Shown here one piece after another: positions 15,588 through 46,140 of a stretch of 52,469 nucleotides of DNA. A program made the position numbers and the translations under genes. The notes beneath the pieces were generated by a model. That model was given only the letters and a program-made list of their open reading frames with translations, did not search any database and was not told the DNA's origin. Numbering within the stretch: the first letter of the stretch is position 1; the number at the start of each line of letters is the position of its first letter. The stretch lies in IMG/VR virus record IMGVR_UViG_3300032224_001181, positions 1 to 52,469 of that record, one strand, 5' to 3'. Origin of the DNA: a virus.

Positions 15588-15596
15588 ATCCTACTT

Positions 15597-17752: not shown

Positions 17753-17759
17753 CGTGGGG

Positions 17760-17773: not shown

Positions 17774-17789
17774 TTTTACTGGAGAATCA

Positions 17790-22728: not shown

Positions 22729-22746
22729 AGGTCTCTTTCGGTATGT

Positions 22747-26133: not shown

Positions 26134-26159
26134 TATTTTACCCTCCACACATTATATAA

Positions 26160-27159: not shown

Positions 27160-27797
27160 ATACAGAACATTTACACTATTGGATGCAGGCCATCCGACAA
27201 AGTCCAGATCCCATGCGGACTATGGATGCCTTCTGGGAAGGCCAGCTGAAAAGCAAAGAGTGGCTAATCGACAAATTCTTTAACACACAGCACGAGTGGC
27301 AACCTGCTTTGTTAGGAAAACAATCACCTTTTAGAAAAAACAAAATAAACATTCACATCCATGGAGGGTGGGTTGGTGTATTAGCCAGTATGTTATTTCA
27401 GTATGGTGGGGATAGAATAGGAAAAATTACCAGCATAGACATAGACCCTAGTTGTCAACCAATAGCTTCTATGATGAATAAGAAAGAAGAGATGGAAGGA
27501 CGATTCGAAGCAGTAACAGCCGACATGGTCGACTATGAATGCAACTGGGACGATGTTGATGTTATTATTAATACAAGTGCAGAACACTTAACAGAACAAC
27601 AGTATATTGACTGGCGCATGAGTCATCCGTTACACGTTATATTAGTAGTGCAGAGTAACAACTATAAAATTCCAGAACATGTTTCCCCAATGGAGAGTTT
27701 GGAAGAATTTAAAAACTTTTCTAGAATGCGATGCTGGTGGAAGGGAGAGTTAGAATTGCCGTTATATAATCGTTATATGATTATTGGCAAACCTTAA
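27150..27797 (+). CDS. class I SAM-dependent methyltransferase-like protein
   Basis: A 215-residue protein. Motif I appears as INIHIHGGWVGVLASML (about residues 66-82), variant of the usual E/DxGxGxG. ITSIDIDPSCQPIA is motif II with the acidic pair that holds the ribose, FEAVTADMVDY motif III and DVIINTSAEHLT motif IV. An N-terminal helical region (residues 1-60) is outside the core. The family transfers methyl from AdoMet to an unknown acceptor. It is the second gene of a two-gene plus unit, and its stop overlaps a convergent gene. Confidence 0.65.
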   Translation: MQIDTEHLHYWMQAIRQSPDPMRTMDAFWEGQLKSKEWLIDKFFNTQHEWQPALLGKQSPFRKNKINIHIHGGWVGVLASMLFQYGGDRIGKITSIDIDPSCQPIASMMNKKEEMEGRFEAVTADMVDYECNWDDVDVIINTSAEHLTEQQYIDWRMSHPLHVILVVQSNNYKIPEHVSPMESLEEFKNFSRMRCWWKGELELPLYNRYMIIGKP

Positions 27798-30090: not shown

Positions 30091-30931
30091 AATAAAGATA
30101 GCAACTTCTTACGATGATAGTTGGTTAGAGATAGATAGGCCGCAGCCTCTTATTGATAATAAAATAGAAGATATTACTAGATCTATTTCTGCTGGAAATG
30201 ATTTTACAGATCAAGTTTATATTGACTTTAAAAAAGAAATGACTAACTGGATATTCAGTAGTCAACTTAATCGACTTGCCGGTTTTGATAGTTTTAATCG
30301 TGCAGACATTATAAACGGTTGTACACAATTTATTGATAATTTGTATATGCAAGGGCCTGTCCAGGTACTTAGACACGATTACAGATATCATGAAAGATTA
30401 GGATTAGCATACATTAAAGATGTAGGATCATTAATACCGGGCATTCCGTTAATTATAGCAATGCCTTTTCCTAGTATTGGTAATACACACCCCGACATGG
30501 AGGAAATACTCAATGAAGCGAAAAACAAGGGAATTGATGTACATGTGGATGGCGCTTGGCTTACTTGCTGTCGCGGAATTAACTTTGATTTATCACATCC
30601 ATCTATTAAGTCAGTCGCTGTCAGCTTGAGTAAAGGATTAGGTCTAGGATGGAATAGAATTGGCTTGCGTTGGATACGAAATGTATCGCACTCTGACTCG
30701 ATATCTATCATGAATGATTTCCATATGAATAATCGAGCATTGAGTATCATTGGGTTACATTTTATTAGAAATTTGAAACCAGACTACTTATGGGAAACGC
30801 ACGGAACTAAAAATGTTAAGATTTGCGGTGATTTTAATTTAACACCAACCCCATGCATACACTTAGCATTAAAAGACAATCAACCAGTTGGACTAAGTCC
30901 TCTAATAAGATATTTAGAAAACAATGAATGA
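30083..30931 (+). CDS. short PLP-dependent aminotransferase-like protein (fold type I)
   Basis: A 282-residue protein, shorter than the usual 380-450 for fold type I. IDVHVDGAWL carries the Asp (Asp156) that pairs with the PLP ring nitrogen. SVAVSLSKGLGLGWNRIG carries the Schiff-base Lys184 in the typical S-x-SK-G setting. FPSIGNTHPDMEEIL before it matches the large-domain region. The N-terminal aldehyde-phosphate-binding glycine loop and most of the C-terminal small domain are reduced. It sits between two radical SAM genes, with 8-base overlaps at both ends, so it may supply or remove an amino group on their substrate. Confidence 0.6.
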   Translation: MNRIKIATSYDDSWLEIDRPQPLIDNKIEDITRSISAGNDFTDQVYIDFKKEMTNWIFSSQLNRLAGFDSFNRADIINGCTQFIDNLYMQGPVQVLRHDYRYHERLGLAYIKDVGSLIPGIPLIIAMPFPSIGNTHPDMEEILNEAKNKGIDVHVDGAWLTCCRGINFDLSHPSIKSVAVSLSKGLGLGWNRIGLRWIRNVSHSDSISIMNDFHMNNRALSIIGLHFIRNLKPDYLWETHGTKNVKICGDFNLTPTPCIHLALKDNQPVGLSPLIRYLENNE

Positions 30932-32309
30932 CAAGATAAAACAATACGTTAAGTTAATTGAAGAGAAAACTGGCAGTCCTACATTCTGTGCGTTGCCCTG
31001 GATACATCTAGCAACGAGGCCAAACGGAGATGCTAGACTATGCTGTGTTACCAACGCCAGTGGAGCGCACACTGGAGATCATACTGTGGGGTTAGTTAAG
31101 AAAGAAAATGGACAGCCTGCTAACTTTGGCAAGGACACTCCATTAAGTGCATTTAATAATGAGTATATGCGCGATGTACGCAAGACAATGCTAGAAGGCA
31201 AGATACCTGCAAGCTGTACCAAATGCTTTGAGGAAGAGTCTAACGGTGTTGTAAGTAAACGCTTGTGGGAAATGTATGAGTGGAATAACGATAACTTAGA
31301 TTTTGCTCAATTGATTGCTGATACTGATGCTACCGGTGCTGTACCTCCAGTGATACGTTATCTAGATTTGAGACTAGGACATACCTGCAATCTCAAGTGT
31401 GTAATGTGTAGCCCACACGACAGTAGTCGTTGGTTACAGGACCACGAAAAGATTGTTACATTAACTAAAAGTCCTATTGTATTGAAACAGATAGAGTGGG
31501 ATCCAGCACAGTTTGACAACTACTGGTATGAGAAAACAGAATTTTGGGACGACATATTTGAACAGATCCCGCATATAACACAGTTGTACTTTGCAGGCGG
31601 TGAGCCTTTGATGATTAAAGAACACAGACGTTTCTTAGACGAAATTATCAAACGTGGTTATGCTAAGAATATTAGCCTGCGTTATAATAGTAATGGTATA
31701 TTTGTTAATGAAGACATTATCAATGTGTGGAGTCAATTTAAACAGGTTCGATATGCATTCAGTATTGATGCAGTAGGGGAGCGCAATCATTATATTAGAT
31801 TTCCAACTAAATGGGCCGACATCGAGCATAGTCTTAGACTAATGGACAATGCTCCAGACAATGTGCATTGTGCCATAGCCTGTGCAGTACAGATATTCAA
31901 TGTCAAGCATATCATAGATTTTGCTAAATGGAAATTAATGCAAGGCTACAAGAAGATTAACAAATTTAAACTAGACGAATACGAGTCAGGTGGTGGTATT
32001 ATTAATTTGCATTTACTATACATTCCTACGTTTCTAAGTGCTAGAATTCTACCTAAAGAAGATAAAGAACAGTTAGTAAAAGATTTTACAGAATTTAAAC
32101 AGTGGCTATGGGACAACTACAGACAAGATGATAACTTTTGGAAGATCAATCCTTACGGATGGCAACGCTGGGAAGGTATTTTAAAATTTGTTATGGCAGA
32201 AGATCATACACACTTGTTACCGGACTTTAAAGAATACGCAACTAACTTAGACAACATAAGGAACACAAATGCTAGAGATACCTTTCCTGAGCTCATTGAT
32301 ATCATCTAA
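30924..32309 (+). CDS. twitch-domain radical SAM protein
   Basis: A 461-residue protein. N-terminal Cys22 (FCALPWIHLATRPNG), Cys40-Cys41 (RLCC) and a later CTKCFEEE pair form the twitch-like auxiliary cluster region. The radical SAM motif CNLKCVMC starts at Cys155 and AGGEPL at about 224. The same N-terminal FCxxPW...CC layout recurs in the 34808-36073 and 50338-51678 proteins, giving a three-member subfamily here. Coupled by an 8-base overlap to the PLP gene. Substrate unknown. Confidence 0.87.
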   Translation: MNDKIKQYVKLIEEKTGSPTFCALPWIHLATRPNGDARLCCVTNASGAHTGDHTVGLVKKENGQPANFGKDTPLSAFNNEYMRDVRKTMLEGKIPASCTKCFEEESNGVVSKRLWEMYEWNNDNLDFAQLIADTDATGAVPPVIRYLDLRLGHTCNLKCVMCSPHDSSRWLQDHEKIVTLTKSPIVLKQIEWDPAQFDNYWYEKTEFWDDIFEQIPHITQLYFAGGEPLMIKEHRRFLDEIIKRGYAKNISLRYNSNGIFVNEDIINVWSQFKQVRYAFSIDAVGERNHYIRFPTKWADIEHSLRLMDNAPDNVHCAIACAVQIFNVKHIIDFAKWKLMQGYKKINKFKLDEYESGGGIINLHLLYIPTFLSARILPKEDKEQLVKDFTEFKQWLWDNYRQDDNFWKINPYGWQRWEGILKFVMAEDHTHLLPDFKEYATNLDNIRNTNARDTFPELIDII

Positions 32310-32955
32310 TCCCTATAACTTTAAAAATTTTCTACCACCTAGTCAATATAGGCCAACTGAATATAAACTAAATTCAAACGGTTATCGCACTAACGAATTC
32401 AAGGACATTGATTGGAAAGAATCTGTAGTTATTTTTGGTTGCTCTATGGTGTTTGGTGAAGGGCTAGATGAAGAGCAAACTATAGGCTATCAATTAAGCA
32501 ACATAATCAACAGGCCCGTTATCAATATGGGATCTATAGGTACATCTATACAATTTTCATTATATAATGCCATAGTGTTAAAAGAGAATTTTCCAACGCC
32601 CAAAGCTGTTATAAATTTATGGACAGAGATTGGTAGGTCAACAGTATTCTCAACTCCTAAGCTAAAACACTACGGTGCTTGGAATATTCCAGAAGGGTCG
32701 TTTGGAGATTTGTGGATCCAAGATGTTAGTCACTGCGAAGCTAACGCAAAATTTGCTCAGATAATAAGCAAACAATTTTGGAAAGATACAAACTATCTTG
32801 AAGCTACATTCTTCAAGGCCACACGCAAAGCACTTAAATGTCCACATTTGAGAGGTCACTTGAATTCAACTGATTATGCTAAAGATAATCAACATCCCGG
32901 ACCATTGGCTACTGCCGCTGTGGCTAACCGGCTTGCGAAGGAGCTGCCTTTGTAA
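32269..32955 (+). CDS. SGNH/GDSL hydrolase-like protein
   Basis: A 228-residue protein. VVIFGCSMVFGEGLDEEQT is the nucleophile block, INMGSIGTSIQ the Gly/Asn block and KDNQHPGPLA the Asp-x-x-His pair. So the catalytic set looks complete. It resembles the 19054-19710 protein. It begins 41 bases inside the radical SAM gene but has AAGGAA just upstream, and no later Met is convincing. Its 3' end overlaps the convergent radical SAM gene by 32 bases. Confidence 0.68.
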   Translation: MLEIPFLSSLISSNPYNFKNFLPPSQYRPTEYKLNSNGYRTNEFKDIDWKESVVIFGCSMVFGEGLDEEQTIGYQLSNIINRPVINMGSIGTSIQFSLYNAIVLKENFPTPKAVINLWTEIGRSTVFSTPKLKHYGAWNIPEGSFGDLWIQDVSHCEANAKFAQIISKQFWKDTNYLEATFFKATRKALKCPHLRGHLNSTDYAKDNQHPGPLATAAVANRLAKELPL

Positions 32956-33838
32956 GGGGAATATCAGCCGCGCAGGTACAGAAATCACGATCGCAAACCA
33001 CTGGCTCGCTAGGCACAACGAATGTTCCCTCGTATATATTACCGAGTCTTCCACCAACTCTACAAGTTGCTCGATGTACGTCTCCGTCCCAATTTATCAT
33101 TAGGCTTTCTATACCTGCGTTGCATGACCATCCCTTATATTGATTAAGGTGTTCTTTGATTACATCGTTAGCATGTTTTGGTATTTGAGTACTATTATCA
33201 TCTAACCAAATAATAACATTGGTCTTAACAGTTGCTTCCTGATCCATCATCCATTTAAAATCATCAGGGTGATATCGCATGTCATCAAAGATATTATGAT
33301 CTCCTTCTGTCCAACGTATCCTACGTACAGTGAAAGGAAATTCCATAATCTTTAAGTACTCTGCAACGTCTTTAACGTTTGCCATGTGTTCGTGATGTGC
33401 CATTAGTTGTACAACTATAGATGTCTTACTAAAATTCTTAAGACTTGTTATAGTATGAATAACTCGCTTGTAATCGTATTCAAAGTGTACGCTAAACACA
33501 TATTGGTCTACACGTAATCTATCATACCACTCAGGCTTACGTGTGCCATTGGTAGTCACGCTGATCCAATGAATACTAACGTGTTTAGCATAGTTGATTA
33601 GTTCTTCAAACTTAGGATGTACTGTAGGCTCTCCACCTGTAAAACTAAGACGTATGGGTTTTCCTAACGATACTAATTTATCTACTGTTGATTTAAGTAT
33701 TTCTATATCAGTGTGTTCGCTGGTATTGTCGTGTATAGCAGACGGGCAATATGTACAGTCGTAGTTACAACGTTTACCAAGGTTCCATTCTACCTTGATA
33801 GAGCTTTCATGTCCCCATCGTCCTGTTATTTTAAGCAT
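32924..33838 (-). CDS. radical SAM enzyme
   Basis: A 304-residue protein. CNYDCTYC occupies 24-31 and TGGEPT about residues 67-72. GWSCNAGIESLMI and TCRVGG near the C-terminus, then CDRDFCTC, supply auxiliary cysteines. It shares the GWSCN block with the 26194 enzyme and is similar in length to the next upstream gene, so the three probably form one subfamily. Last gene of a four-gene minus operon (36785 to 32924). Confidence 0.85.
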   Translation of the reverse strand: MLKITGRWGHESSIKVEWNLGKRCNYDCTYCPSAIHDNTSEHTDIEILKSTVDKLVSLGKPIRLSFTGGEPTVHPKFEELINYAKHVSIHWISVTTNGTRKPEWYDRLRVDQYVFSVHFEYDYKRVIHTITSLKNFSKTSIVVQLMAHHEHMANVKDVAEYLKIMEFPFTVRRIRWTEGDHNIFDDMRYHPDDFKWMMDQEATVKTNVIIWLDDNSTQIPKHANDVIKEHLNQYKGWSCNAGIESLMINWDGDVHRATCRVGGRLGNIYEGTFVVPSEPVVCDRDFCTCAADIPLTKAAPSQAG

Positions 33839-34811
33839 GATGTATTGGAATAACTTTCTTTGGCATGTTAGTCTCTGCCATGCAATTACATGAAAACTGT
33901 TTACAGATAACTGATTGAATTTTTGGATTAAATTTTAATGCAAAATCTGTATCTCGCAAATTATATTTTTGCTTTTCGTTATATAAAGACTGGTTACACG
34001 TCCCTGATACTGTTCCAGAATGATCTATATGTACCCAATCGACTCCTAGGCTACATTCCCATTTATAAAAGTTATTCCACCGATTTAGTAAGATACTGTT
34101 GTCCTTTAATTTAATTCTTTTACCAGTGTCAGTTGTAACAACCACTTTACTTTTATAGTATTTGTTGTTTTTCCAAAACCAAAACGGATTAGGCCCCCTG
34201 GCTCTGTGTAGATCTAAAATACGCAGTTGTTCTTCAGTATATGTTATTCCATGCCCTAATAATTCTGAATACCGAATAGTCCATCGGTTTTTACTTAGTT
34301 TTAATTCTTCCACAACATCAATGCATTTATTCCATTCATTGGGATCCATCATAACTGATGCACTGACTACTACATTTTGTGTATATAGATAGTCGCAGAT
34401 ATCTTTAAATTTTTGTATATCTGCATATTGATGATGATAACTTATTTGTATTCTGTTAAAGTAAGGTGCAATCTTTTTCCAGTAATCTAGTTTTTTAGAA
34501 CCGTTAGTTGTCATTGATATTAAACAATTAAAGTTTTCTTTAAGATACTGTGTAAACTCTGCCAGTTTTGGCCAGTGTGTTGGCTCTCCGCCTACATAAC
34601 TTATATCAAATATTTCTTTTCCGTTATTTTTATAATGATTCAACAGGTGTGTTATATTTGTTTTAAAAGTTTCATAATCGGGAAATTTATAATCTCCTTC
34701 ATTTGCTCCTGGAAAGCAGTACCAACATTTATAGTTGCAGACATTACCGAGACTTAAATTAATTCCTAAAGTCTTGTTGTTCCATCCGTTTTCTACTTTA
34801 ACTAAATTCAT
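33831..34811 (-). CDS. radical SAM enzyme
   Basis: A 326-residue protein. CNYKCWYC spans 25-32 and VGGEPT about 73-78. C-terminal cysteines lie in WECSLGVDW, GTCNQS and CKQFSCNC. The N-terminal LGINLSLGNVCNYKCWYC strand is typical of the TIM-barrel start. It overlaps its downstream partner by 8 bases, and they may act one after the other or as a complex. Substrate unknown. Confidence 0.84.
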   Translation of the reverse strand: MNLVKVENGWNNKTLGINLSLGNVCNYKCWYCFPGANEGDYKFPDYETFKTNITHLLNHYKNNGKEIFDISYVGGEPTHWPKLAEFTQYLKENFNCLISMTTNGSKKLDYWKKIAPYFNRIQISYHHQYADIQKFKDICDYLYTQNVVVSASVMMDPNEWNKCIDVVEELKLSKNRWTIRYSELLGHGITYTEEQLRILDLHRARGPNPFWFWKNNKYYKSKVVVTTDTGKRIKLKDNSILLNRWNNFYKWECSLGVDWVHIDHSGTVSGTCNQSLYNEKQKYNLRDTDFALKFNPKIQSVICKQFSCNCMAETNMPKKVIPIHHA

Positions 34812-36073
34812 ATATAATTGTTGAACTCCGGTGTTACTTTAAAGAAACTTTGACTCCGTGTCTTATCTAGCTTGGTATTGAAGTCTACACACTCGCTCCA
34901 TAGATGTGTAGTATTTTTTGAAGTAATAAAGTTAATCACTCCGTCAATCTGCTTGTTGGTAATGTCTAATAAAATAGGATTAGCTTTAACGTGTTTAAAT
35001 TCTGGAACACGCAACTTAACAGCATTAAGTCTTTTAATTGCCATTGACTTTAACTCGTTAGGCAGTACTTGTATAGACAGCACATTAGGGTAATTGACCA
35101 TGTTAGTATAGAATACAATGCCTAAGTCATCTAGGAAATATTCTATCATCTTATCTAATATTAGTACATTACTTACTTGGACAGCAACGGCCCCAACGAC
35201 TCTGCTGACGTTTGAGATTGTCTGTATCGTTTTAATATTCTCCACAACTTCAGAGAAGTTAGCGTTACCACGTATGTACTCGTAAACATCACCAATGCCA
35301 TCAATGCTGACATTAACGGCAACTGATCTAAAATGTGGCCAATATTCATGTATAGTTCTTCCTTTTGAAATTCCTAATGTTGTGCCATTAGTAGCATATT
35401 TGATTTCTATTTGATGCCCGTAGGGTTTCAACATATCTAGTATTTGAAAATGTTGAGGATCCATTAGAGGCTCGCCGCCTGCAAACTCTACACGACGGAA
35501 GTAAGGCAATAGCTTCTCAAATGATTCCCACCAATTAGGATTATCCTCAAACTTATCCAAGTAGGGTTTCTTCATTAGGTTAAGCTCTTGTATTGCCTTG
35601 ACCATAAAGTTGTTTTCTTTAACATAGAACTCTTCTACTTCTTTCCAATCATTCCAGCTTGTACTATCCATAGGATGGCACATACGACATTTAAGATTAC
35701 ATAAGTTATTAAGTTTAATTTCTATTGTAGGAAACTTAAACGACATAGTCATTTCTGGATGCAGGTGGTCTAATGCATTTGGATACAGATTAATTCGACT
35801 TTCAGGGATAGTGTCTTTGATATGGCGCTGACGTAGACTTTCAACTCCTTGGTCTTCTAATCCAAAACATGGAGCACATTCGGATGGTCTTTCTCCGGAC
35901 AACACCTGTCTTCGTATCCTGCGCATCGTGTCGTTATTCCAAATTTGTTCTAATGTATTATCTTGTATATTGCCAACAGGATGGCTACGGCAACACACTT
36001 GTATAGCACCGTCTTCTCTAGTAGCTAACCCAGTAAATGGATGCATACAAAATGTTTTACTTTGAAAGCTCAT
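34808..36073 (-). CDS. twitch-domain radical SAM protein
   Basis: A 421-residue protein. N-terminal Cys9 (FCMHPF), Cys27-Cys28 (QVCCRS) and Cys66/Cys69 (CAPC) are the auxiliary cluster ligands; CNLKCRMC is at 125-132 and AGGEPL at about 197. Same architecture as the 30924 protein. A typical LSGERPSEC link between the two cysteine groups is present. It overlaps the upstream oxygenase gene by 17 bases. Confidence 0.87.
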   Translation of the reverse strand: MSFQSKTFCMHPFTGLATREDGAIQVCCRSHPVGNIQDNTLEQIWNNDTMRRIRRQVLSGERPSECAPCFGLEDQGVESLRQRHIKDTIPESRINLYPNALDHLHPEMTMSFKFPTIEIKLNNLCNLKCRMCHPMDSTSWNDWKEVEEFYVKENNFMVKAIQELNLMKKPYLDKFEDNPNWWESFEKLLPYFRRVEFAGGEPLMDPQHFQILDMLKPYGHQIEIKYATNGTTLGISKGRTIHEYWPHFRSVAVNVSIDGIGDVYEYIRGNANFSEVVENIKTIQTISNVSRVVGAVAVQVSNVLILDKMIEYFLDDLGIVFYTNMVNYPNVLSIQVLPNELKSMAIKRLNAVKLRVPEFKHVKANPILLDITNKQIDGVINFITSKNTTHLWSECVDFNTKLDKTRSQSFFKVTPEFNNYI

Positions 36074-36785
36074 ATTGTTTTTTATAACTCCTAACTATTA
36101 ATTCATAAAACTCATTTTTCTTCGATCCGATGAGACCGTGCCCAATCATATGGAGTCTTCTCTGCTTGCTGTAATTAATTACTGAATGATCATTTGTAAT
36201 GTTAACCAATATTGCTTTTCCCGAATTCCACGGAACAACTCCGTGATCGCGCAATGTCATATAACATAACCTAGGATGAAAGATAGCAATATTGATAGGT
36301 ATAATATGATCAAGTATATTGTCTACATTAGGGTTATCGTTGTGTGGTCCAACATATCCGGCCGAGTCAACACTCATAAATCTTACTCTAAGTAATTTTT
36401 CAAAAGGAAGTGATTCCCAGAAGGCTTTGATAGTAGGAGTAATTTCACTTAATTCAGTCCAATGATATGCATCGACAGGTTCATTAAAATTGGTGCCAGT
36501 AACTGTAGTTCCCAAACCGTGAATACACGCAGAAGTCCACCCTAGGTGGTTTTCTCCTTCTCTATGGTCAACCAGATAAGGCAACGCCTGTGTAGATTCT
36601 ATTAACCATTGCTCTAGGTCTATAGTAAGATCGAGCTCTATCCACCCTATAGGCTGTGCAAAAATCCACTTGGCTATTTCTTCGTCGGAGACTAGATCTT
36701 CTGGAATTTTAGTTGGCTTCCACGAACACGATTTATTGTTTTGGTAAAATGTCTCTGCTGACTGCATGGTTATATTTAATGCCAT
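36057..36785 (-). CDS. aspartyl/asparaginyl-hydroxylase-like oxygenase
   Basis: A 242-residue protein. HND lies in YVGPHNDNPNVD, then INIAIFHP and a distal His in NDHSVINYSKQRRLHMIG, whose HxVxNxSxxxR layout is that of aspartyl/asparaginyl beta-hydroxylases (His for Fe, Arg for 2-oxoglutarate). It is first in a minus operon with three radical SAM genes, suggesting joint action on one substrate. The N-terminal 60 residues are outside the fold. The gap to the divergent plus operon is only 23 bases. Confidence 0.68.
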   Translation of the reverse strand: MALNITMQSAETFYQNNKSCSWKPTKIPEDLVSDEEIAKWIFAQPIGWIELDLTIDLEQWLIESTQALPYLVDHREGENHLGWTSACIHGLGTTVTGTNFNEPVDAYHWTELSEITPTIKAFWESLPFEKLLRVRFMSVDSAGYVGPHNDNPNVDNILDHIIPINIAIFHPRLCYMTLRDHGVVPWNSGKAILVNITNDHSVINYSKQRRLHMIGHGLIGSKKNEFYELIVRSYKKQYELSK

Positions 36786-36808: not shown

Positions 36809-37480
36809 ATGTTACATAAGATACCATTTACAGTACCGCCAGATTTGATTGATAATGTAGTGTCAAAAATAAACGGAACTGATACTATTACAATAAATCA
36901 ACCAACTGGAGATTTCTTTTACGACAATTGGGAATTAAAATCAGAGTATAAAGATACTGCCATTGAGCACATTTATTCCAGTTTACCAAAAAGAAAAGGT
37001 GAAGCAAGGATTATAAGTTTATCTGGTGGAGAAGCATATTCTAGTCATGCCGATATAGATGATAGGTATCATCTAAACTTATCAGGAGATAGATCCTTTT
37101 TAATTGATCTAGATAATCGAACAATGCACGAAACGCAAACAGATGGTTGTTGGTATCTAATGGATGCAGGCAGGAAACATTCTGCTGTTAATTTTGGTTA
37201 CAAAATACGGTATCAGTTAGTAGTTAGAAAACTGCTAGACAAAGGAAATATCAAAGAACCAATCAATGTTAAAATTACAGTCAAGGAAAATATCAATCTT
37301 GATACCGCTAGATTTATTTTTGACGATGTAATAAGCAGTTGTCTTAATATTATTAACAAAGAAGGATTTTTAGATAATTTTAGTTATTCTAATAATGTTA
37401 TAAAATTTACAACAGATGCACAGCATGTTTATAAACTAGAAGATATACTACCAAAAGAATTTAAAATGGAAATAATATGA
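36809..37480 (+). CDS. Fe(II)/2OG oxygenase-like protein with C-terminal extension
   Basis: A 223-residue protein. HAD lies in AYSSHADIDDRY (about residues 87-89), the distal His in GRKHSAVNFGYKIRYQLV with Arg after it. The oxygenase part ends near residue 145; the last 75 residues are a separate alpha/beta segment with no motif I recognise. First gene of a ten-gene plus operon. No Shine-Dalgarno. Confidence 0.6.
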   Translation: MLHKIPFTVPPDLIDNVVSKINGTDTITINQPTGDFFYDNWELKSEYKDTAIEHIYSSLPKRKGEARIISLSGGEAYSSHADIDDRYHLNLSGDRSFLIDLDNRTMHETQTDGCWYLMDAGRKHSAVNFGYKIRYQLVVRKLLDKGNIKEPINVKITVKENINLDTARFIFDDVISSCLNIINKEGFLDNFSYSNNVIKFTTDAQHVYKLEDILPKEFKMEII

Positions 37481-37827
37481 GTTGGGGATACCACCTTTTA
37501 CTTGATTGTTCTGAGTGCAATCAAAGCATCGATAATGATACAATAATTGAAAAATTTGTTGTAGAGTTGATACCTGCTATAGGTATGCAAGCAGTTGATG
37601 GCCCTCGAATAGAATATCTCCTCCCTAAGACTCCTAATGCGGGCTATAGTATGATGCAAATGATACAAACAAGCAATATCACTGCTCACTTTGTTAGTGC
37701 TACCAGGGACGGATACATCGATCTGTTTAGTTGCAAGAAATTTAACAAAGATATTGTTACTGCATTGGTTAAAAAATACTTTAATCCAAAGATCATTAAA
37801 GAAACATTTTTAGAGAGACAAGCATAA
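37477..37827 (+). CDS. speD: S-adenosylmethionine decarboxylase (SpeD/SpeH type)
   Basis: A 116-residue protein of the short bacterial class. SNITAHF holds Ser66 (the self-cleavage site that becomes pyruvoyl) and His71; IDLFSCKKF holds Cys86, matching Ser63, His68 and Cys83 of Thermotoga AdoMetDC. The Glu before the serine is Thr here, which may alter processing. It makes decarboxylated AdoMet, the aminopropyl donor for spermidine; no aminopropyltransferase is in the window. speD occurs in many marine phages. Coupled to both neighbours (ATGA, TAATG). Confidence 0.88.
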   Translation: MSWGYHLLLDCSECNQSIDNDTIIEKFVVELIPAIGMQAVDGPRIEYLLPKTPNAGYSMMQMIQTSNITAHFVSATRDGYIDLFSCKKFNKDIVTALVKKYFNPKIIKETFLERQA

Positions 37828-39413
37828 TGAGGATAGTTATTGTAGGCGGTGGCACTGCTGGCTGGATGACTGCCGGCTATCTTTCAAAGTATTACAAGGA
37901 TAGCACGATTACTGTTGTAGAATCTCCAACGATACCTAAAATCGGAGTAGGAGAAAGTGTTACTCCTCACGTAACTAATTTCTTTGACGAGATAGGAGTA
38001 GATAGGCATCATTGGATGAAACATACTTCTGCTGTGTACAAATTAGCTAACAAATTTGTTAACTGGAAAAAAGGACAAGGCGAAAGCGAATACTTTAGTT
38101 TTACATACACTACATCAGCAGATAGCTTTTACAAAGATATAACTCCCGCCATATCAAAGGAAGATTTTTCAGGAAGGGTTGATATTGAACGGACTACAGA
38201 CTACTTGATAGAAATGGCAAAGCGTGGTGACATTGACCGGTTTGACAAGTATTTTAATCCACAGTTTCATTACATGGAAAAGAATGCAAGTCCGTTCATA
38301 GATGATGATATGTTACTAAATGGTCCTTTTAGTTTTAGTCAACACATCAATGCAGAACTTGCTGGTAATTATATTAGAGATTATATAGCTGTTCCTAATG
38401 GTGTAGTACACATCATTGCAACAGTTACTACAGTTAATCACGAAGGTGATAGTATATCAAGTATAGAGTTAGATAATGATGCTAAACTAACTGCTGATCT
38501 CTTTATAGATTGTACAGGATTCCACAAGGCTCTTATCACAGAACTAGGTTGGAAAGAAAAGATTTACAGCGATCACCCGATCGATAGTGCGTGGGTATGT
38601 CAAACAAACTACACAGACCAAGATAAAGAACTGGTAAATTATACACAAAGTATTGCAGAGCCTCACGGTTGGAGATTTAAAATAGGGCTGTACCATAGAA
38701 TGGGCAATGGTTACTGTTTTAGTTCTAAACATGTTAGTCCTGAAGATGCACTTGCACACTTTGAGAAACAGATAGGTCCACAAAAAACTAAACCTAGACT
38801 AATCAAATGGCAACCAAAGCGATTAGAAAAATTTGGAAGTGGTAATGTTGCCGCAATTGGGCTAAGTTGTGGGTTCGTCGAGCCATTAGAAGCTAATGCA
38901 TTATATACTATTATTACCAGTATTCGAAGACTTAATAATGTAATAGAAGAATATCAACATACTAAAGAATTTGATTTTAGCAAGTATAACGAAAAGATGT
39001 CATATACTATTGATGATATTGCAGATTTTATATTGGTACACTATACCCTAAGTTCTAGAACAGATACTGCTTTCTGGATTGATATGCAGGCACTAGGTAA
39101 AAAACTCAATCATAAAGACCTAGTATGGAACAAGTACAATCATACTAATAATTCTATGTATGGAGCTATCACAGGATATACGCTCTTTCCAGATTACATG
39201 TGGTGCCAACTTGCTATATCGTGGGGCATGCATGATATATATTCGCCAAAGATCAACGAACACACGTACAATATTGCAAGACATCACTATCAATACAGCG
39301 AAAAGAAACACAATATGATATCATCAGTTGTTGATAAAAATAGTGCATGGCACAAACAGTTTATATTCGATGGACTAACACCATTAGAATGGGAAGAAAA
39401 ATATATAAAATGA
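37827..39413 (+). CDS. flavin-dependent (tryptophan-type) halogenase
   Basis: A full-length 528-residue halogenase. GGGTAGW (7-13) is the FAD loop and family signature, Lys72 in YKLANKFVNW aligns with the catalytic lysine, VGESVTPHV the pyrophosphate region, and GFVEPLEANALY (about 349-360) the flavin-side block. The WxWxIP motif reads WRFKIG near residue 282, another aromatic substitution plus loss of the Pro. The enzyme needs FADH2 from a reductase not seen here. It sits in an operon with AdoMet decarboxylase and amidinotransferase, so the halogenated substrate may be a small molecule made there. Only distantly related to the left-edge halogenase. Confidence 0.9.
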   Translation: MRIVIVGGGTAGWMTAGYLSKYYKDSTITVVESPTIPKIGVGESVTPHVTNFFDEIGVDRHHWMKHTSAVYKLANKFVNWKKGQGESEYFSFTYTTSADSFYKDITPAISKEDFSGRVDIERTTDYLIEMAKRGDIDRFDKYFNPQFHYMEKNASPFIDDDMLLNGPFSFSQHINAELAGNYIRDYIAVPNGVVHIIATVTTVNHEGDSISSIELDNDAKLTADLFIDCTGFHKALITELGWKEKIYSDHPIDSAWVCQTNYTDQDKELVNYTQSIAEPHGWRFKIGLYHRMGNGYCFSSKHVSPEDALAHFEKQIGPQKTKPRLIKWQPKRLEKFGSGNVAAIGLSCGFVEPLEANALYTIITSIRRLNNVIEEYQHTKEFDFSKYNEKMSYTIDDIADFILVHYTLSSRTDTAFWIDMQALGKKLNHKDLVWNKYNHTNNSMYGAITGYTLFPDYMWCQLAISWGMHDIYSPKINEHTYNIARHHYQYSEKKHNMISSVVDKNSAWHKQFIFDGLTPLEWEEKYIK

Positions 39414-39826
39414 TTAAAGACTGGATTACTAATATTTCAATTCCTCATAAAGAATTAGACGGAATGCCTGTATGCCCTTATGCTAAGTCGTCTGAGTATA
39501 CAGTCATAGAAACAGACGGGAGTGATATCAGCCCCCCTCCGTGGGACTTTGAACTTATCGTTTATAAGTTACCTGATGAATATTCAATAGATGAATTATC
39601 TGATATCGCAACAGAGTACAACAACATATATCCAGAGATGGTGTTTTTGCCGGACCATAAAGATAAAGATACATTTATAAACGGTATACAAACCAATAAC
39701 GGAAAATACAATCTTATTCTATGTCAATGGAGAGATAATTTAGAAACAGCCAGAACGAAATTGTCTAATACATCTTATTACAGCTTTTGGGACAGTGAGT
39801 ATTTAAAAGAGATATTAAACACATGA
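39410..39826 (+). CDS. conserved small protein of halogenase operon
   Basis: I start it at the ATG at 39410 (138 residues) because it overlaps the halogenase stop as ATGA; an upstream extension to 39347 lies inside the halogenase gene. The N-terminal WITNISIPHKELDGMPVCPYA contains a conserved-looking MPVCPYA block that I recall in proteins near phage or bacterial halogenases, but without a function. The rest is acidic with an alpha/beta pattern (FELIVYKLPDEYSIDELSD). A partner or carrier for the halogenase is possible. Confidence 0.5.
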   Translation: MIKDWITNISIPHKELDGMPVCPYAKSSEYTVIETDGSDISPPPWDFELIVYKLPDEYSIDELSDIATEYNNIYPEMVFLPDHKDKDTFINGIQTNNGKYNLILCQWRDNLETARTKLSNTSYYSFWDSEYLKEILNT

Positions 39827-40818
39827 TATGGACAGAGTGGGATCCTTTAGAAGAAATCATCGTTGGCGATTGTAGTCCTATAGCAAGTAATAAAGATCTT
39901 GCAAGGATATTACAGGAAACCAAAGAAGATTTAGATACATTAGCAGATTATCTAATCAGCATGGGCATAAAAGTATACCGCCCTAATGTTGATAAAAATC
40001 CTGCAATGTCTCCTATTGTTCCTCGCGATCAATACTTAGTATATGGTAGTACTATTTTACAAACATATACCAGCATGCCAGACAGATTCTCCGATGGCCT
40101 AAATTATAACGAAATTTTTGTAGAGTTATTCAAAGAAGGACATAACTGGATCAGTCAGCCGCCTCCTGTGTTGTCTACTCTTAAAGAAACAGACAAATGG
40201 TGGAATGAAGGTAAGCACATATATCACGACCTAAACAAGAATAAAATTCTATGGCATACTGCTACTATGTTTAAGTGCGGTGATGCATTAATAACAAATA
40301 AACAAGGACCCGGGACAGCATTAGGGCTAGAATGGATGCAACGTAATTTACCCAATACTCGAATTATTGAAAACGATAAGTGGGGTCATATTGATCACGG
40401 ATTTTTTATGATAAACGATGATACTGTCATCTGTATCAATCCGTCCTGGGTTCCTGACTGCTTACAAGATAAGAAACTAATTGTAATAGAAGATTATATT
40501 GAGGTATTGGATTATAGCAAGATAGTAGAAGACTTTTCTACTACCACAGGAACATTGAGCCAAGAGTGGATAGACAAATGGCTTAACGAGTGGAAAGGTT
40601 ATGTCCAAGACGTTGCGTTTGATAGTAATGTTTTAGTAATAGATTCTAACAATGTGTTGTTTTCTAGCTCTCAACCAAAATTATTTGAATTTTTAGAGCA
40701 ACAAGGAATTACTTGCCATGTTGTAAACATGCGACACAGTATGTTCTGGGAAGGTGGTATACATTGTCTAACACTCGATGTCAAACGCAAAGGAAGCCGC
40801 AGAGTAATCTGTAAATAG
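39823..40818 (+). CDS. amidinotransferase (glycine/inosamine amidinotransferase-like)
   Basis: A 331-residue protein of the guanidino-group-modifying superfamily. WDPLEEIIVGD opens it; PRDQYLVYG, GHIDHGFF (His for catalysis) and MFWEGGIHCLTLDVKR with nucleophile Cys315 match arginine:glycine and inosamine amidinotransferases, in which the Cys forms an amidino-thioether. It would transfer an amidino group from arginine to an amine, creating a guanidino compound. Beside AdoMet decarboxylase and a class III aminotransferase, an amine acceptor could be a polyamine or amino-sugar, but this is inference. Coupled by ATGA. Confidence 0.88.
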   Translation: MIWTEWDPLEEIIVGDCSPIASNKDLARILQETKEDLDTLADYLISMGIKVYRPNVDKNPAMSPIVPRDQYLVYGSTILQTYTSMPDRFSDGLNYNEIFVELFKEGHNWISQPPPVLSTLKETDKWWNEGKHIYHDLNKNKILWHTATMFKCGDALITNKQGPGTALGLEWMQRNLPNTRIIENDKWGHIDHGFFMINDDTVICINPSWVPDCLQDKKLIVIEDYIEVLDYSKIVEDFSTTTGTLSQEWIDKWLNEWKGYVQDVAFDSNVLVIDSNNVLFSSSQPKLFEFLEQQGITCHVVNMRHSMFWEGGIHCLTLDVKRKGSRRVICK

Positions 40819-40822
40819 AACT

Positions 40823-42733
40823 ATGAATAGTGTATACCTAATACAAGCAGAGATTACCTCTGGTCCAGTTAATGAACATTACCTGCCGTTCTCTGTAGGC
40901 TGCATTTGGGCGTATGCCAATCAGTTTGACTATGTAAAAGACAATTACGAACTAAAAGACGTGATATGGCGCAGAGAAAGACAACAAGATGTACTAGATA
41001 GAATAGTAGACCCTACGATTGTGGGATTTAGTTGCTATGTTTGGAATCATAATTGGAATTTGACTCTTGCTAAAAAAATCAAAGACAAGTATCCAAACTG
41101 TTTGATTGTATTTGGAGGCCCCAGTGTAAGCGAAAGCTGGTTAGAGAATGACTTTATTGATGTAGCTATGTTTGGTGAGGGCGAAGAAGCATGGGCTAAG
41201 TTACTAAAGATGCATGTAGAAGGGAAAGACCTTCCTAGATATTGGAATAATCCTAGACAGAAGAATATTGAACATTATCCTAGTCCCTATCTAACAGGGT
41301 TCTTTGATAAAATTATTGAGGACAATCCAGACGTTAGTTGGTTTATGATGCTAGAAACCAACAGAGGCTGTCCTTACCATTGCACATTCTGTGGGTGGGG
41401 TGCTGACTATCTTAACAAACTTAAAGTATTTGATTTAAACCGTGTTGATGACGAAATCAAATGGGCTATTACACATAACATTCACTGGGTCTTCATTATT
41501 GATGCTAACTCTGGTATCCTTAAAGAACGGGATGTTGAAATTGCATGGATGATACGCAGAGCTATTGAAACACCAGAAAGCAAGATTAGACGAGTTACAT
41601 TTAATCATGCAAAGAATTTAAACGAGTCGTGTTTTGAAATGGAAAGGATCATACAAGACTGGACTTATGGTCTAGAGATAGCAATTCAGAGCATGCATGC
41701 TCCTACATTAGAAGCAAGCAAGCGATTCAACATGGGTACTAATAATCTAAAGAAAGCCTATGCATTGTGTAAAAAACACGGCATTAGATATTACACCGAG
41801 TTAGTGTTAGGGCTACCTTTAGAAACCAAAGATACTTACATTAACGGACTTATGCAATTGATAGAGTTTGGCCAACACGACTCAGTTAAAACTTATCCGT
41901 GTACTGTTATTCCCAACAGTGAAATGGACACAAAAGAATATCAAGAGCAGTATGGAATTAAACTAATCTATCCTAAAGACATGTATCGTAGTCCAGAAGA
42001 ACGAGTATGGGATGTTGAGGATAATAGTTCAGAAACAATAGCTATGGTTTCTTCTACATCTAGCGCATCTAGCCAAGACTTAGCTGATTGCTTTTCCTAC
42101 AGCTGGATGATGAGTCAGTTTCACTATCTAGGTATTACTCAGATAACTTCCAAGTATTTGTTTTATATGAAATCAATAAGTTATAGAAGTTTCTATGACA
42201 GGCTCTACGAAGAACTTTTAATGGATCCAATTGGCGGACCTATCTTACAAGATGTTGAGGAAATATTAATTAATTATTTTTTACGCGGAGAGGTTCCAAA
42301 GGTTGAAAAATATAAGAATGTTGTAGCATTAACATTATCTGAAAGTTATTGCATAGACAACATTATTCAAAATCAAGATCATTTTATTGATTTAGGTATT
42401 AGAATAGCGAAAGAATTTACAGATGTTGATCAAAGCATAATTGATCTACAGTATGCTTACATGAAACGCGGAGCAGTTGAATATCCTTACACACTCAATT
42501 CAACTATCGACATTGACCGCTGGAAGTATTTAGATTGTGTTTATCAAATTGATTCTAAACAATCAGTAAGTCATATGCACGATCAAATGTATTCTAAATT
42601 TTTACAAAAGAATTACATAACAAATCTAACTAGGCCATTTATTGAAAAACACGTAACTGATACATACAAAGGAAATAAGCTATCATTAATTCCTGTAGTA
42701 GTTGAAGTATCTAACAAAGGGCGTGTACTATGA
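40823..42733 (+). CDS. B12-binding-domain radical SAM protein
   Basis: A 636-residue protein. Residues 1-145 have the Rossmann-like B12-binding fold (PTIVGFSCYVWNHNW, CLIVFGGPSVS, VAMFGEGEEAW) but lack the DxHxxG cobalamin-base motif, as in many B12 radical SAM enzymes. CPYHCTFC begins at Cys183. The region VTFNHAKNLNESC and IRYYTELVLGLPLETKD matches the TIM-barrel. A long C-terminal domain (about residues 420-636) has no motif I can name. Such enzymes often methylate or rearrange unactivated carbons. Confidence 0.88.
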   Translation: MNSVYLIQAEITSGPVNEHYLPFSVGCIWAYANQFDYVKDNYELKDVIWRRERQQDVLDRIVDPTIVGFSCYVWNHNWNLTLAKKIKDKYPNCLIVFGGPSVSESWLENDFIDVAMFGEGEEAWAKLLKMHVEGKDLPRYWNNPRQKNIEHYPSPYLTGFFDKIIEDNPDVSWFMMLETNRGCPYHCTFCGWGADYLNKLKVFDLNRVDDEIKWAITHNIHWVFIIDANSGILKERDVEIAWMIRRAIETPESKIRRVTFNHAKNLNESCFEMERIIQDWTYGLEIAIQSMHAPTLEASKRFNMGTNNLKKAYALCKKHGIRYYTELVLGLPLETKDTYINGLMQLIEFGQHDSVKTYPCTVIPNSEMDTKEYQEQYGIKLIYPKDMYRSPEERVWDVEDNSSETIAMVSSTSSASSQDLADCFSYSWMMSQFHYLGITQITSKYLFYMKSISYRSFYDRLYEELLMDPIGGPILQDVEEILINYFLRGEVPKVEKYKNVVALTLSESYCIDNIIQNQDHFIDLGIRIAKEFTDVDQSIIDLQYAYMKRGAVEYPYTLNSTIDIDRWKYLDCVYQIDSKQSVSHMHDQMYSKFLQKNYITNLTRPFIEKHVTDTYKGNKLSLIPVVVEVSNKGRVL

Positions 42734-43893
42734 AATTAATGGGATTTAATGACAGCAATATTAATCGATTGCTTGATAGTATCAAAGGAACTAGGTTAGA
42801 TACGACAGTTTCATTGTGCAATCATTGCCATAGGCACGTTCCTGCATGGAGATACTATACAGACAACAAAGTATATATTGCTAAGTCTTGTGCAATACAC
42901 GGTATTAGTCATCATCTAATTGAAAATGATTACGAATTTTATTCTAATCTATATTACACCCAAGATAACCCAGAGTTTAATTTCAATGGTGGAGTGTTGA
43001 TTGAAGGTAGCGACCGCTGTAACTTAGAATGCCCTCATTGCTATCATTTGCCAGATTCTAATACTAAAGACCCTAGCATAGAATCTTTATTAGATCAAGT
43101 AAGAGCGATGCCTTTAGGAAAGGACGGAGTGCATAGGATTATACTCGCAGGAGCAGAAAGCACATTGCGTAAAGATTTTCCAGAGCTTGTGTTGGCTATT
43201 AGAAGTCTACATCCTGAATTAGATGTAAGTGTTATGACAAACGGAATTAGATTCAATGATAGCGAGTTTGCACGTGAAAGTGTACAAGCAGGGTTAGCCG
43301 GATGTAACATTGGTCTTAATCATCCTGACTATATCAATCACGAAACTATTAGACGTAAACAAATTACAGCCATTGAGAATATGCATCGAGAGAATGTAAA
43401 AATAGGCTATATCAGTTACACTATGGTCAGCTTTGCAGAGCTAGGTGATATATTAACTGAGATAACCAGCAATTTCTGGCAACCTAAGAATTTTAGGATA
43501 CGCAATGGAGCTGAGATTGGTCGCAATGCAACTACTGAACAAACGTTTGTTAGTGATTTATATAAAGCTGTTGAACAATGGTGTTTAGATAATAACAAAT
43601 CATTCAGTCGTATAATAGAAGCAGACAATAATATCTATCATGTTATGGTTAAAATAGAAGATAAAACTGTGCGATTGATTAGTTGGTGTGATGAAAATAA
43701 TATTGACATGGAGGAACTGCGTAGTGGACCTTGGTGCAATTTTGTGCCAGACGGTATTACAAACTTCCTGCATCAAATTATTCGAAGAGATGTATGGAAA
43801 AACAATGGTACTATATTGTTAGACCAGCCGCCCGATCGTTATAAATTTAAAAGGGTAATAGATAATTCTACCTTGGATCTATTAAAATTATGA
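42730..43893 (+). CDS. radical SAM with N-terminal Zn-type cysteine motif (tetraether-synthase/MoaA-like layout)
   Basis: A 387-residue protein. Before the radical SAM motif CNLECPHC (97-104) there is SLCNHCHRHVPAW at 29-40 and KSCAIHG at 52-58. This CxxC...CxxHG layout is typical of radical SAM proteins of the archaeal tetraether-lipid synthase type and related uncharacterised enzymes. The usual GGEPT is AGAESTL (about residue 140). NHPDYINHETIRRKQ and WCNFVPDG regions also fit. Function in phage unknown; the layout suggests action on lipids or other alkyl chains, as inference. Coupled by ATGA at both ends. Confidence 0.82.
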   Translation: MKLMGFNDSNINRLLDSIKGTRLDTTVSLCNHCHRHVPAWRYYTDNKVYIAKSCAIHGISHHLIENDYEFYSNLYYTQDNPEFNFNGGVLIEGSDRCNLECPHCYHLPDSNTKDPSIESLLDQVRAMPLGKDGVHRIILAGAESTLRKDFPELVLAIRSLHPELDVSVMTNGIRFNDSEFARESVQAGLAGCNIGLNHPDYINHETIRRKQITAIENMHRENVKIGYISYTMVSFAELGDILTEITSNFWQPKNFRIRNGAEIGRNATTEQTFVSDLYKAVEQWCLDNNKSFSRIIEADNNIYHVMVKIEDKTVRLISWCDENNIDMEELRSGPWCNFVPDGITNFLHQIIRRDVWKNNGTILLDQPPDRYKFKRVIDNSTLDLLKL

Positions 43894-44387
43894 AGATAGC
43901 AATAACAGGTGGTAACGGATTAGTAGGAAGTTGCTTTGTCCACTCCTATACAAAACGAGGTCATGAAGTAGTAAACATTTCTCGTTCGTTAGGTTATGAC
44001 TTTAATAATATTGATAGTATTGTTGCGGCAATTCTGCCGTGTGATGTGTTTATCAATTGTTTACATCTTAAAAATATCCAAACAACATTATTAGATATAG
44101 TATGGCATCACTGGAACCATACGACAAAGCACATTATCAATATTAGCACTTGCAATACATTACCAAATTTCAAGTCTAAAAATATAGAATATCACCAAGA
44201 AAAATTAACTTTAGAAGAAAAGCATTGGAGTTTAATTCAAAATGCAGTACTCGCACCTTCCATGTGCTTGGTGAAATTAGGTGACGGGCATGAAGATAAC
44301 ACTTGGAGTAACTGCGTTGAATATGTGGTAAACAGTATCGAAACTTCAAGCCCTAATTATCTGTTTGAGATGGCAGTATTTAAATGA
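43890..44387 (+). CDS. short NAD-dependent epimerase/dehydratase (SDR)-like protein
   Basis: A 165-residue protein, about half the usual SDR length. TGGNGLVGS (6-14) is the NAD-binding GxxGxxG, ISTCN matches the catalytic Ser/Thr strand and YHQEK at 101-105 is the YxxxK pair, so cofactor and catalytic residues are present. The C-terminal substrate domain is much reduced, so it may need a partner. Coupled to both neighbours by ATGA. Confidence 0.65.
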   Translation: MKIAITGGNGLVGSCFVHSYTKRGHEVVNISRSLGYDFNNIDSIVAAILPCDVFINCLHLKNIQTTLLDIVWHHWNHTTKHIINISTCNTLPNFKSKNIEYHQEKLTLEEKHWSLIQNAVLAPSMCLVKLGDGHEDNTWSNCVEYVVNSIETSSPNYLFEMAVFK

Positions 44388-45004
44388 ACATTATTATAGA
44401 TCAAATTAGAGACGGACTTTATACGTTTGATTTAGAGCTAGATTATAGTTACGATCGAGTAGTGTCCGAGTTTGAAAACGAATCTTGGGAATCTCATAAA
44501 GATCGTAAAGATACATCCGGCCTTGCTGGAGATCCTTATCAAGAAAGATCCGGATTGATGAATCCTAAAAGTCCTATGCTACAATCAATTAGAGATTATG
44601 TTTCTAGCAATCAAGTAAAGCAACAGGCCATTGAGTATCTATACCAACATCAAGGAAAGTATGTGAGTTCAATGTGGGAAGGATGGTCAGCTGAACAGAT
44701 GTACAACAATACATTTTGGGGATCTATATACAATAGAGATTATCCAGGTTTTGCTATTTCTAATCATTTAGATACGAGACTTCAAGTAGCAACTGCACTC
44801 ATTTATTTTACTGAGAAAGACGACGCAGATCAATCAACAACATACTATACATCAGAAAATAAAGACAATAAAATTAGAATAGAAAACGGTTTTGGAAAAG
44901 GTGTGCTACATTTGAACGATCACACCAGCTGGCATGAAGGTGCTAACAACTCTAATAAGACACGTTACTCGTTAATATGCGGATTACTAATTAAGGTGCA
45001 ATAA
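44384..45004 (+). CDS. Fe(II)/2OG oxygenase-like protein
   Basis: A 206-residue protein. HLD lies in AISNHLDTRLQVAT (about residues 126-128); the distal His is in HTSWHEGANNSNKTRYSLI, with Arg following. YYTSENKDN in the strand between is typical of phytanoyl/prolyl-hydroxylase-like sequences. Its stop overlaps the next start as TAATG. One of the thirteen HxD...H...R proteins here. Confidence 0.66.
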   Translation: MNIIIDQIRDGLYTFDLELDYSYDRVVSEFENESWESHKDRKDTSGLAGDPYQERSGLMNPKSPMLQSIRDYVSSNQVKQQAIEYLYQHQGKYVSSMWEGWSAEQMYNNTFWGSIYNRDYPGFAISNHLDTRLQVATALIYFTEKDDADQSTTYYTSENKDNKIRIENGFGKGVLHLNDHTSWHEGANNSNKTRYSLICGLLIKVQ

Positions 45005-46140
45005 TGGAGTTAAATTTACGAACTAACGAAACTTTTAATGTTGAAGTATCTAAAACCGAACGGTATTGGATACACACCAATCACGGTAAACTATTAGATA
45101 CCATATGTGGTAGTATGACCTACATCTATGGATACAGCAACGATTACATATTAGATAAAATGTATAAACAACAACGTCAAATTGCCTATCTAGATTTTAA
45201 ACATAATGAAATATGTGAATCAAGTAACCAATTGACCAAACTATTATGTGACGAAGGTCAGTTTGAAGGTATTGGTTATGCTGTAAGCGGTAGTGATGGT
45301 GTCGAATGTGCCATTGCTATGAACAATCAGTATTGGAAAGAACTAAAACAAAACAAAGCAAAGATTATTAGTTTCACTCCAGGTTACCACGGAGCAACTT
45401 TTCTAAATCGATCATTTAGAAACGAAGAACTAGGTCCTGCTATTGTAGTAGAAAGAACAACAGAAAAAAATACCCTTGAAAAAGTAGAATACCTGTTGAC
45501 CAATCGTAACGATATTGGTGCAGTTATAATGGAGTCAATTCCGTGGTCAAATGGGATTAATCCTTGGAGCAAGGACTGGTGGCATGCTATTAGAGAATTA
45601 ACAAACAAACATAATGTTAATCTAATTATTGATGATGTTATGGGAGGTATGGGAAAACTAGGACACAAGTTCAGCCATAAACAATATGATGTAGAGCCAG
45701 ATATAGTTGTGCTAGGTAAATCGTTAACTGGAGGCTATGCTCCTCTGAGTTGTGCTTGCACAGTCAAACGGATCAGCGATGTAATTTCTAATAACTGGGC
45801 CTACGGGCATACATGGCAACCAAATATGGCAGGTGTAGGTGCCGCATTGGCTGTTTGGGATTTATTTGATAGCAGTACCGTGATAGCCGTCAGTAAACGT
45901 ATGGAATTAATTGCATCATCTCTGCTTGACAGAGATCTAATAGTTGATTACAGTACTATAGGATTGATAACTTCTATGAAATTAATTAATCCTATAACAA
46001 GCGAAACTTATCTCAAGAATGGGTTAACTGGCGGGCCTAGCATTAAACATTCTATTACTATATGCACACCTTTAATTGCAGATGATGAATACTTTGCTGA
46101 ATTAGAATCTAGATTAGTTAGCTGTCTTACAGTGATTTAA
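45004..46140 (+). CDS. class III PLP-dependent aminotransferase
   Basis: A 378-residue protein, slightly short for the class. SGSDGVECAIAM is the phosphate loop, GYHGATFLNR the cofactor stacking segment, LIIDDVMGGMGKLG the Asp block and VLGKSLTGGYAPL carries Lys239 for the Schiff base. YGHTWQPNMAGVGAALA matches the subunit-contact loop. Such enzymes move the terminal amino group of diamines, omega-amino acids or amino sugars, and include glutamate-1-semialdehyde mutases. It ends the operon and overlaps the convergent gene by 27 bases. Confidence 0.88.
   Translation: MELNLRTNETFNVEVSKTERYWIHTNHGKLLDTICGSMTYIYGYSNDYILDKMYKQQRQIAYLDFKHNEICESSNQLTKLLCDEGQFEGIGYAVSGSDGVECAIAMNNQYWKELKQNKAKIISFTPGYHGATFLNRSFRNEELGPAIVVERTTEKNTLEKVEYLLTNRNDIGAVIMESIPWSNGINPWSKDWWHAIRELTNKHNVNLIIDDVMGGMGKLGHKFSHKQYDVEPDIVVLGKSLTGGYAPLSCACTVKRISDVISNNWAYGHTWQPNMAGVGAALAVWDLFDSSTVIAVSKRMELIASSLLDRDLIVDYSTIGLITSMKLINPITSETYLKNGLTGGPSIKHSITICTPLIADDEYFAELESRLVSCLTVI

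Follow-up and report, generated by a model that had tools for sequence, protein, structure and literature searches.

The ten consecutive genes, A to J, at 36809-46140 of a viral DNA stretch of 52,469 nucleotides (hereafter the window, a fragment of 52 kb from a virus record) are part of a larger unit. Since most genes at 14962-46140 have orthologues in related loci, the real unit is a conserved island of about 31 kb, of which A-J form the 3′ third. The island may tentatively be read as a phage-specific tailoring pathway that would guanidinylate, C-methylate and hydroxylate a scaffold that already exists, a sugar or glycan being the likeliest. What recurs among unrelated phages is an aminotransferase, a small partner protein and an amidinotransferase (J-D-E), often accompanied by the SpeD-like B.

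Layout of the ten-gene block

A preliminary description of the window had proposed a ten-gene coupled operon at this position. The ORF listing confirmed all ten genes on the + strand, with spacings from A to J of -4, -1, -4, -4, +4, -4, -4, -4 and -1 bp when the D start is set at 39410. This start is the one indicated by the sequence, since the relatives of D are 138-141 aa long and the ATG at 39410 forms the usual ATGA overlap with the stop codon of C; the longer start at 39347 is unsupported. Recognisable enzyme folds were found in all of the products except D. Pfam, PHROG, NCBIfam and PDB searches agree with the enzyme classes proposed earlier, with A, H and I weakly supported, and the Pfam search gave no family for D or for E. 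Thus far the names given earlier stand, although caution is needed for the amidinotransferase (a triad residue is His), the halogenase (the WxWxIP motif is lost) and the AdoMet decarboxylase (specificity).

Gene A (36809..37480) encodes a 2OG-Fe(II) oxygenase-like protein with a weak Asp_Arg_Hydrox match (E = 0.003) and an HxD80...H124 motif, and has relatives of about 50% identity in other islands. The 165-aa product of H (43890..44387) is a short epimerase/dehydrogenase-like protein resembling a truncated SDR, while I (44384..45004) encodes a 2OG-Fe(II) oxygenase with a 2OG-FeII domain match. Convergent with J and overlapping its end is a gene for an HAD phosphatase fused to a nucleotidyltransferase (46114-47490), which was not found in the related islands.

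The probable guanidinylation core: E, J and D

The product of E (39823..40818) is an amidinotransferase-family (pentein) enzyme with PDB matches to StrB1, HsvA, AGAT and SxtG, and no match in the Pfam or NCBIfam profile searches. The best PDB match is StrB1, an inosamine (cyclitol) amidinotransferase (3e-21), and HsvA is also near. The catalytic residues of AGAT are Asp254, His303 and Cys407, and Asp254 is conserved in AoaA (PMC3684758). The Cys and His are kept in all 70 relatives of E, as are the PRD Asp and the HxD Asp. In contrast, the position of AGAT Asp254 is occupied by His in 62 of the 70 sequences, including the window protein; Asp was found in phage CP220 and four other distant sequences. 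Thus, the reaction of E may be a non-canonical amidino transfer, and the protein is better regarded, on these residues, as amidinotransferase-like than as a strict member of the AGAT/StrB1/SxtG group.

J (45004..46140) encodes a class III PLP aminotransferase (Aminotran_3, 3e-44). In streptomycin-type guanidinylation by StrB1, which belongs to the same family as E, the amine is likewise first made by an aminotransferase. On the other hand, E has His for the triad Asp, the aminotransferase is of class III, and the window has no cyclitol genes. The enzymes centred on E probably add a guanidine group. The earlier proposal of a guanidinylated, possibly halogenated product can be kept in part: the J-E pair is chemically best read as leading to a guanidino product, while halogenation is doubtful owing to the lost WxWxIP motif.

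The 138-aa D protein (39410..39826; phrog_10325, no Pfam match) was modelled confidently (pLDDT 91, 56 sequences). No significant fold match was found in the PDB, and the viral proteins that it matches are uncharacterised. An RRE-like fold was considered for D and rejected because of the lack of a PDB match. Adjacency and gene fusions suggest that D probably works together with E, C and B.

Putative tailoring enzymes: B, C, F and G

B (37477..37827) encodes a pyruvoyl decarboxylase of the SpeD/AdoMetDC fold (AdoMet_dc, 1e-14). The nearest phage homologue found is that of phiN3 (37%), a validated AdoMetDC, and the alignment of the two shows that the self-processing Ser, His and Cys are kept in B. 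However, B scores 26 bits against an AdoMetDC equivalog cut-off of 75.65, and its specificity residues are ambiguous. Some phage SpeD homologues decarboxylate ornithine or arginine (PMC9992855, PMC10407285); B shares their fold and self-processing residues and may act on a substrate other than AdoMet. An assignment as ornithine decarboxylase from Gln-Thr-Ser and His-Phe was dropped, since the validated phiN3 enzyme shares the Gln and Phe. Elsewhere, a phage polyamine operon was noted in Microcystis phage MaAM05, where two SpeD-like genes, speE and speB follow one another (L278 3486-6264).

C (37827..39413) encodes a flavin enzyme of PF04820 (Trp_halogenase, 4e-93). Its best PDB match, and the nearest phage halogenase, is VirX1, a viral flavin halogenase of cyanophage Syn10 (8e-60). 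The two share the active-site Lys and Glu, and the catalytic Lys and the EPxE Glu are each present in 23 of 23 sequences. Unlike VirX1, C has WRFKIG (GWRFKIGL in the window) in place of the WxWxIP signature, which is lost across the clade of the window protein, whereas VirX1-type phage copies keep it, including one in a related 265-kb phage. Halogenation by C is therefore doubtful.

F (40823..42733) encodes a TokK/CysS/KedN5-like cobalamin-dependent radical-SAM methylase, with a B12-binding domain and a CxxxCxxC motif whose cysteines are kept in 28 of 29 sequences. This architecture is shared with the carbapenem methylases TokK and ThnK and with CysS and KedN5, but identity is only about 30% and no beta-lactam genes are present. 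F matches TokK at 1e-72 (about 30% identity) and KedN5 at 1.8e-45, and its 155 bits against an NCBIfam cut-off of 700 for KedN5 mark it as a distant relative rather than a KedN5 member. The radical-SAM enzyme encoded by G (42730..43893) has an HMPTM-type N-terminal Zn-ribbon, and its CxxxCxxC motif was found in all 65 distinct relatives tested.

The conserved island

The limits of the island were set by comparing every window protein with the related loci. Outside 14962-46140 there is mostly no match, except for 7863-11949 and a few weak matches. Thus, of the cluster described earlier, the ten genes are real but 36809 is not the start, and conserved biosynthetic genes reach back to about 14962. 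The island is tightly packed and has about forty genes including A-J. Eight of these are radical-SAM genes (ORFs with a CxxxCxxC motif), and 13 ORFs have an HxD...H oxygenase motif at a spacing of about 50 residues, a motif reading that is not proof of oxygenase function.

The 5′ part (14962..21164) carries genes for a sulfotransferase, a fatty-acid desaturase, oxygenases and a kinase-like protein, and most of its genes have orthologues of 72-89% identity in the related contig G001. A tRNA-Gly gene (tcc; 16311-16384) lies between, and overlaps the ends of, the convergent genes at 15597-16340 and 16350-17147. The kinase-like ORF (19688-20377) has 24 copies across relatives; its catalytic-loop and DFG-type aspartates look replaced by eye, and it is possibly a pseudokinase. 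On the - strand, 21141..26148 holds seven tandem 2OG oxygenase-like genes and two others (23813 and 24277). The next two genes, on the + strand (26194..27797), encode a radical-SAM protein (M, 26194) and a methyltransferase-like protein (N, 27150); these precede A by 9 kb in the window, and both are present in 27 of 27 loci of the first set. They are followed by a - strand ORF with a glycosyltransferase-like half of the GT-A type (27794..28942). The region 28999..32955 on the + strand has a radical-SAM gene (28999), an unannotated 282-aa ORF (30083), a SPASM radical-SAM gene (30924) and an SGNH-like ORF recognised by eye (32269). Three further radical-SAM genes (32924, 33831 and 34808, the last with SPASM) occupy 32924..36073 on the - strand. 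Finally, an Asp/Asn hydroxylase-like oxygenase gene (36057..36785, - strand) is divergent from A and is kept in relatives.

Is the substrate a protein? The enzymes might hydroxylate, methylate and otherwise alter either a structural protein of the phage or, as in RiPPs, a short precursor peptide, with J and E acting on side chains. The SPASM radical-SAM and Asp/Asn hydroxylase-like proteins of the island fit this, B12-dependent radical-SAM C-methylases occur in RiPPs, and there is a weak match to TIGR03975. Moreover, D adjoins gp25/gp6 in cyanophages, and the oxygenase and halogenase genes of pelagiphage HTVC008M sit among neck, terminase and tail genes. However, no gap in 14962-46140 exceeds 56 bp, leaving room for an unlisted precursor gene only by overlap or outside, and D is a globular protein without an RRE-like or any other PDB fold match. 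Protein modification thus seems rather unlikely.

Two other genes of the window, upstream of the island, were noted. The ORF at 12001-13482 encodes a NodU/Nol-like carbamoyltransferase (phrog_1601, 1e-100). A 1441-aa ORF at 3524-7849 combines a subtilase (Peptidase_S8), a BD-FAE esterase-like domain and He_PIG Ig repeats, and its product is a probable tail-associated or secreted surface enzyme.

Recurrence in other phages

Orthologues with 28-82% identity were found in dozens of IMG/VR phage contigs, which argues that the association of A-J is not due to chance. A viral scan with F found it encoded in 26 viral loci at 49-73% identity. G is also present in all 26, and E and a J-type class III aminotransferase gene adjoin F in nearly all of the loci that extend far enough. 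In contig G001 (265 kb; pieces L038 and L003), most island proteins have matches at 45-89%, and C, D, E, F, G, H, I, J and B are all carried. Since G001 encodes tail-sheath and virion proteins, the host replicon is a large contractile-tailed phage. Besides C, G001 has four further genes of the tryptophan-halogenase family, three of them in tandem (L034 12550-14166, L035 2403-6983). A megablast search of 22 kb against phages gave no match.

A wider set was gathered by scans with E and D, which reached many other phages, and near-identical copies were removed; HMM families were built from relatives recovered by the same searches. Most E loci were found with E itself as the query, without regard to D or J. 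Among 43 non-redundant loci, D lies no more than 5 kb from E in 31 and J in 25. Of 45 non-redundant E loci, 25 have D immediately before E in the same orientation, and 19 have an adjacent J. The compact orders B-D-E, J-D-E, D-J-E-B and D-E-B-J were seen. It was also found that D is fused to C in a 658-aa protein (L055/L213, one contig) and to B in a 271-aa protein (L066). The order B-(C~D)-E in L055 is that of the window. In L227 and L257, ORFs that by eye resemble tandem 2OG oxygenase genes come after B-D-E, and in L266 J-D-E is flanked by glycosyltransferase-like ORFs (by eye), which precede it, and SPASM radical-SAM genes. In another phage (L259), the J-D-E unit adjoins ORFs resembling lambda-type tail-tip proteins; this contig also has an adenylosuccinate synthetase-like ORF of the PurA or PurZ type (9395-10387; by eye), with possible 2-aminoadenine DNA. 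A description of the J-D-E unit was not found in the open-access literature, of which coverage was incomplete.

Gene order, whose loss in relatives had earlier been named as evidence against the proposal, was only partly conserved, which bears in part against it: J-D-E is recurrent, but C, D, H, I and B move, and J is often on the opposite strand. Such shifts in position and strand, together with the replacement of J by a distant homologue in many loci, would suit a hypervariable accessory region where unrelated metabolic genes have piled up and adjacency does not imply a single pathway. This is quite improbable in view of the J-D-E adjacency in unrelated phages, the two independent fusions of D and the 49-80% identity kept across dozens of contigs.

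No cellular relative of F was found in GTDB scans with F alone or with an F alignment, although strict peptide patterns can miss distant relatives. Likewise, no bacterial cluster with this gene set was found in plasmids searched via F, G and E or in two F neighbourhoods. The comparison with bacterial biosynthetic clusters that had been suggested thus gave no matching cluster.

Proposed scaffold and pathway

Scaffold genes were surveyed in 15 related contigs, three of them of 265-289 kb; most are fragments, and absences are provisional. AMP-binding and MFS genes were found in none of the 15, a carrier protein in one and a ketosynthase in two, while the window itself lacks all the adenylation, carrier and ketosynthase domains of a modular NRPS/PKS cluster. 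This makes a classical small-molecule cluster unlikely. The resemblance to a natural-product cluster noted in the preliminary description holds insofar as a co-selected pathway, not isolated auxiliary genes, is indicated, but not as a stand-alone cluster, given these absences and relatives of up to 289 kb. A self-contained pathway whose free product is an amine or amino sugar bearing a guanidino group and perhaps a halogen would account for an enzyme mix that recalls the tailoring genes of antibiotic clusters, with a StrB1-type amidinotransferase, a TokK-type methylase and a class III aminotransferase, and a ketosynthase-like gene shares a contig with a B/D/E subset. With AMP-binding and MFS genes missing even from the three large contigs, carrier and ketosynthase genes scarce, and the halogenase signature lost in C, such a pathway is unlikely. 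Beta-ketoacyl-synthase-like genes were noted in two B-D-E contigs: at L257 5852-7030, immediately upstream of the unit, and at G017:23123-23785. A phaseolotoxin-like pathway (desaturase, amidinotransferase and aminotransferase) was set aside since it is not known to involve radical-SAM/B12 chemistry.

Because no scaffold-building enzyme is present, it is likely that the pathway decorates a scaffold made elsewhere. Several contexts point to a sugar or glycan. In cyanophage S-SCSM2R, the amidinotransferase gene adjoins KdsA/KdsB and oxygenase genes; in CP220, it adjoins two genes of the sugar-nucleotide-transferase fold; and on an Azospirillum plasmid, a TokK-type relative of F lies within a polysaccharide cluster. 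Epimerase-family nucleotide-sugar enzymes are encoded in all three large contigs, with three genes in tandem at 238-241 kb in G001. The ORF at 27794 also has a weak GT-A-like match (LH3, LARGE1, mimivirus R699 and COLGALT1; TM about 0.3). Against glycan tailoring stand the triad His in E, the presence of glycosyltransferase family 2 above cut-off in only one of the 15 contigs, the weakness of the 27794 match, and the lack of a bacterial counterpart in the GTDB scans that would fix the product. The abundant Asp/Asn-hydroxylase-like enzymes suit a protein target equally well. A sugar or glycan is favoured as the most likely scaffold, and a protein also fits.

For the glycan scaffold, most likely one on the surface of the virion or the infected cell, the steps might be as follows. 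J would convert a keto or aldehyde group of an intermediate into a primary amine, and E would transfer an amidino group to it, presumably from L-arginine, yielding a guanidine and ornithine. D would be a helper, probably one that binds or delivers the acceptor for E and for C or B. F would add methyl groups to unactivated carbon, G would perform a second radical-SAM step, and A and I would hydroxylate. C might catalyse a flavin-dependent oxidation, halogenation being possible but doubtful, and B might decarboxylate ornithine, arginine or AdoMet.

Relation to known phage cassettes

The Campylobacter phages CP220 and CPt10 have different cassettes, unrelated in sequence, at one site (Timms et al. 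2010, PMC2853527). Each has five radical-SAM genes and an amidinotransferase gene and was termed an interchangeable module of unknown use (PMC2853527). The island resembles these in gene content, with radical-SAM genes (eight versus about five) and one amidinotransferase gene per block, and in CP220 two genes of the nucleotide-diphospho-sugar-transferase fold follow the cassette. However, E is only 25% identical to the CP220 amidinotransferase, which keeps the canonical Asp, and the CP220 stretch showed no D, TokK-type F, class III aminotransferase or oxygenase arrays. The island can be regarded as a module of the same sort carried by aquatic phages, in which E belongs to another clade and D, F, J and the oxygenase arrays are present as well; the Campylobacter cassettes are the closest published parallel.

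Swappable cassettes of this kind resemble diversifying protection systems, which would suggest that the product is a modified base protecting phage DNA. In the survey, a gene of the thymidylate-synthase/pyrimidine hydroxymethylase family was found in one of the 15 contigs and QueC above cut-off in one, neither being in the window or in G001. DNA hypermodification is accordingly very improbable.

Significance

Genes for 2OG oxygenases, halogenases and radical-SAM enzymes are numerous in marine and freshwater phages, but no purpose is known for them. The J-D-E unit, alone or together with B, comprises three to four genes and is small enough for expression and assay. It would allow a direct test of what phage radical-SAM/amidinotransferase cassettes do, a question that dates from the 2010 work on Campylobacter phages, and might bring to light an altered chemistry of amidinotransferases as well as a protein fold that has not been studied. 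A bolder and more doubtful possibility is a virus-only pathway where the His-variant amidinotransferase, the new-fold D protein and the class III aminotransferase guanidinylate a phage or host polymer, which the radical-SAM and 2OG arrays would elaborate into a swappable coat or anti-receptor mark. If true, such a mark on aquatic phages would have no counterpart known from cells.
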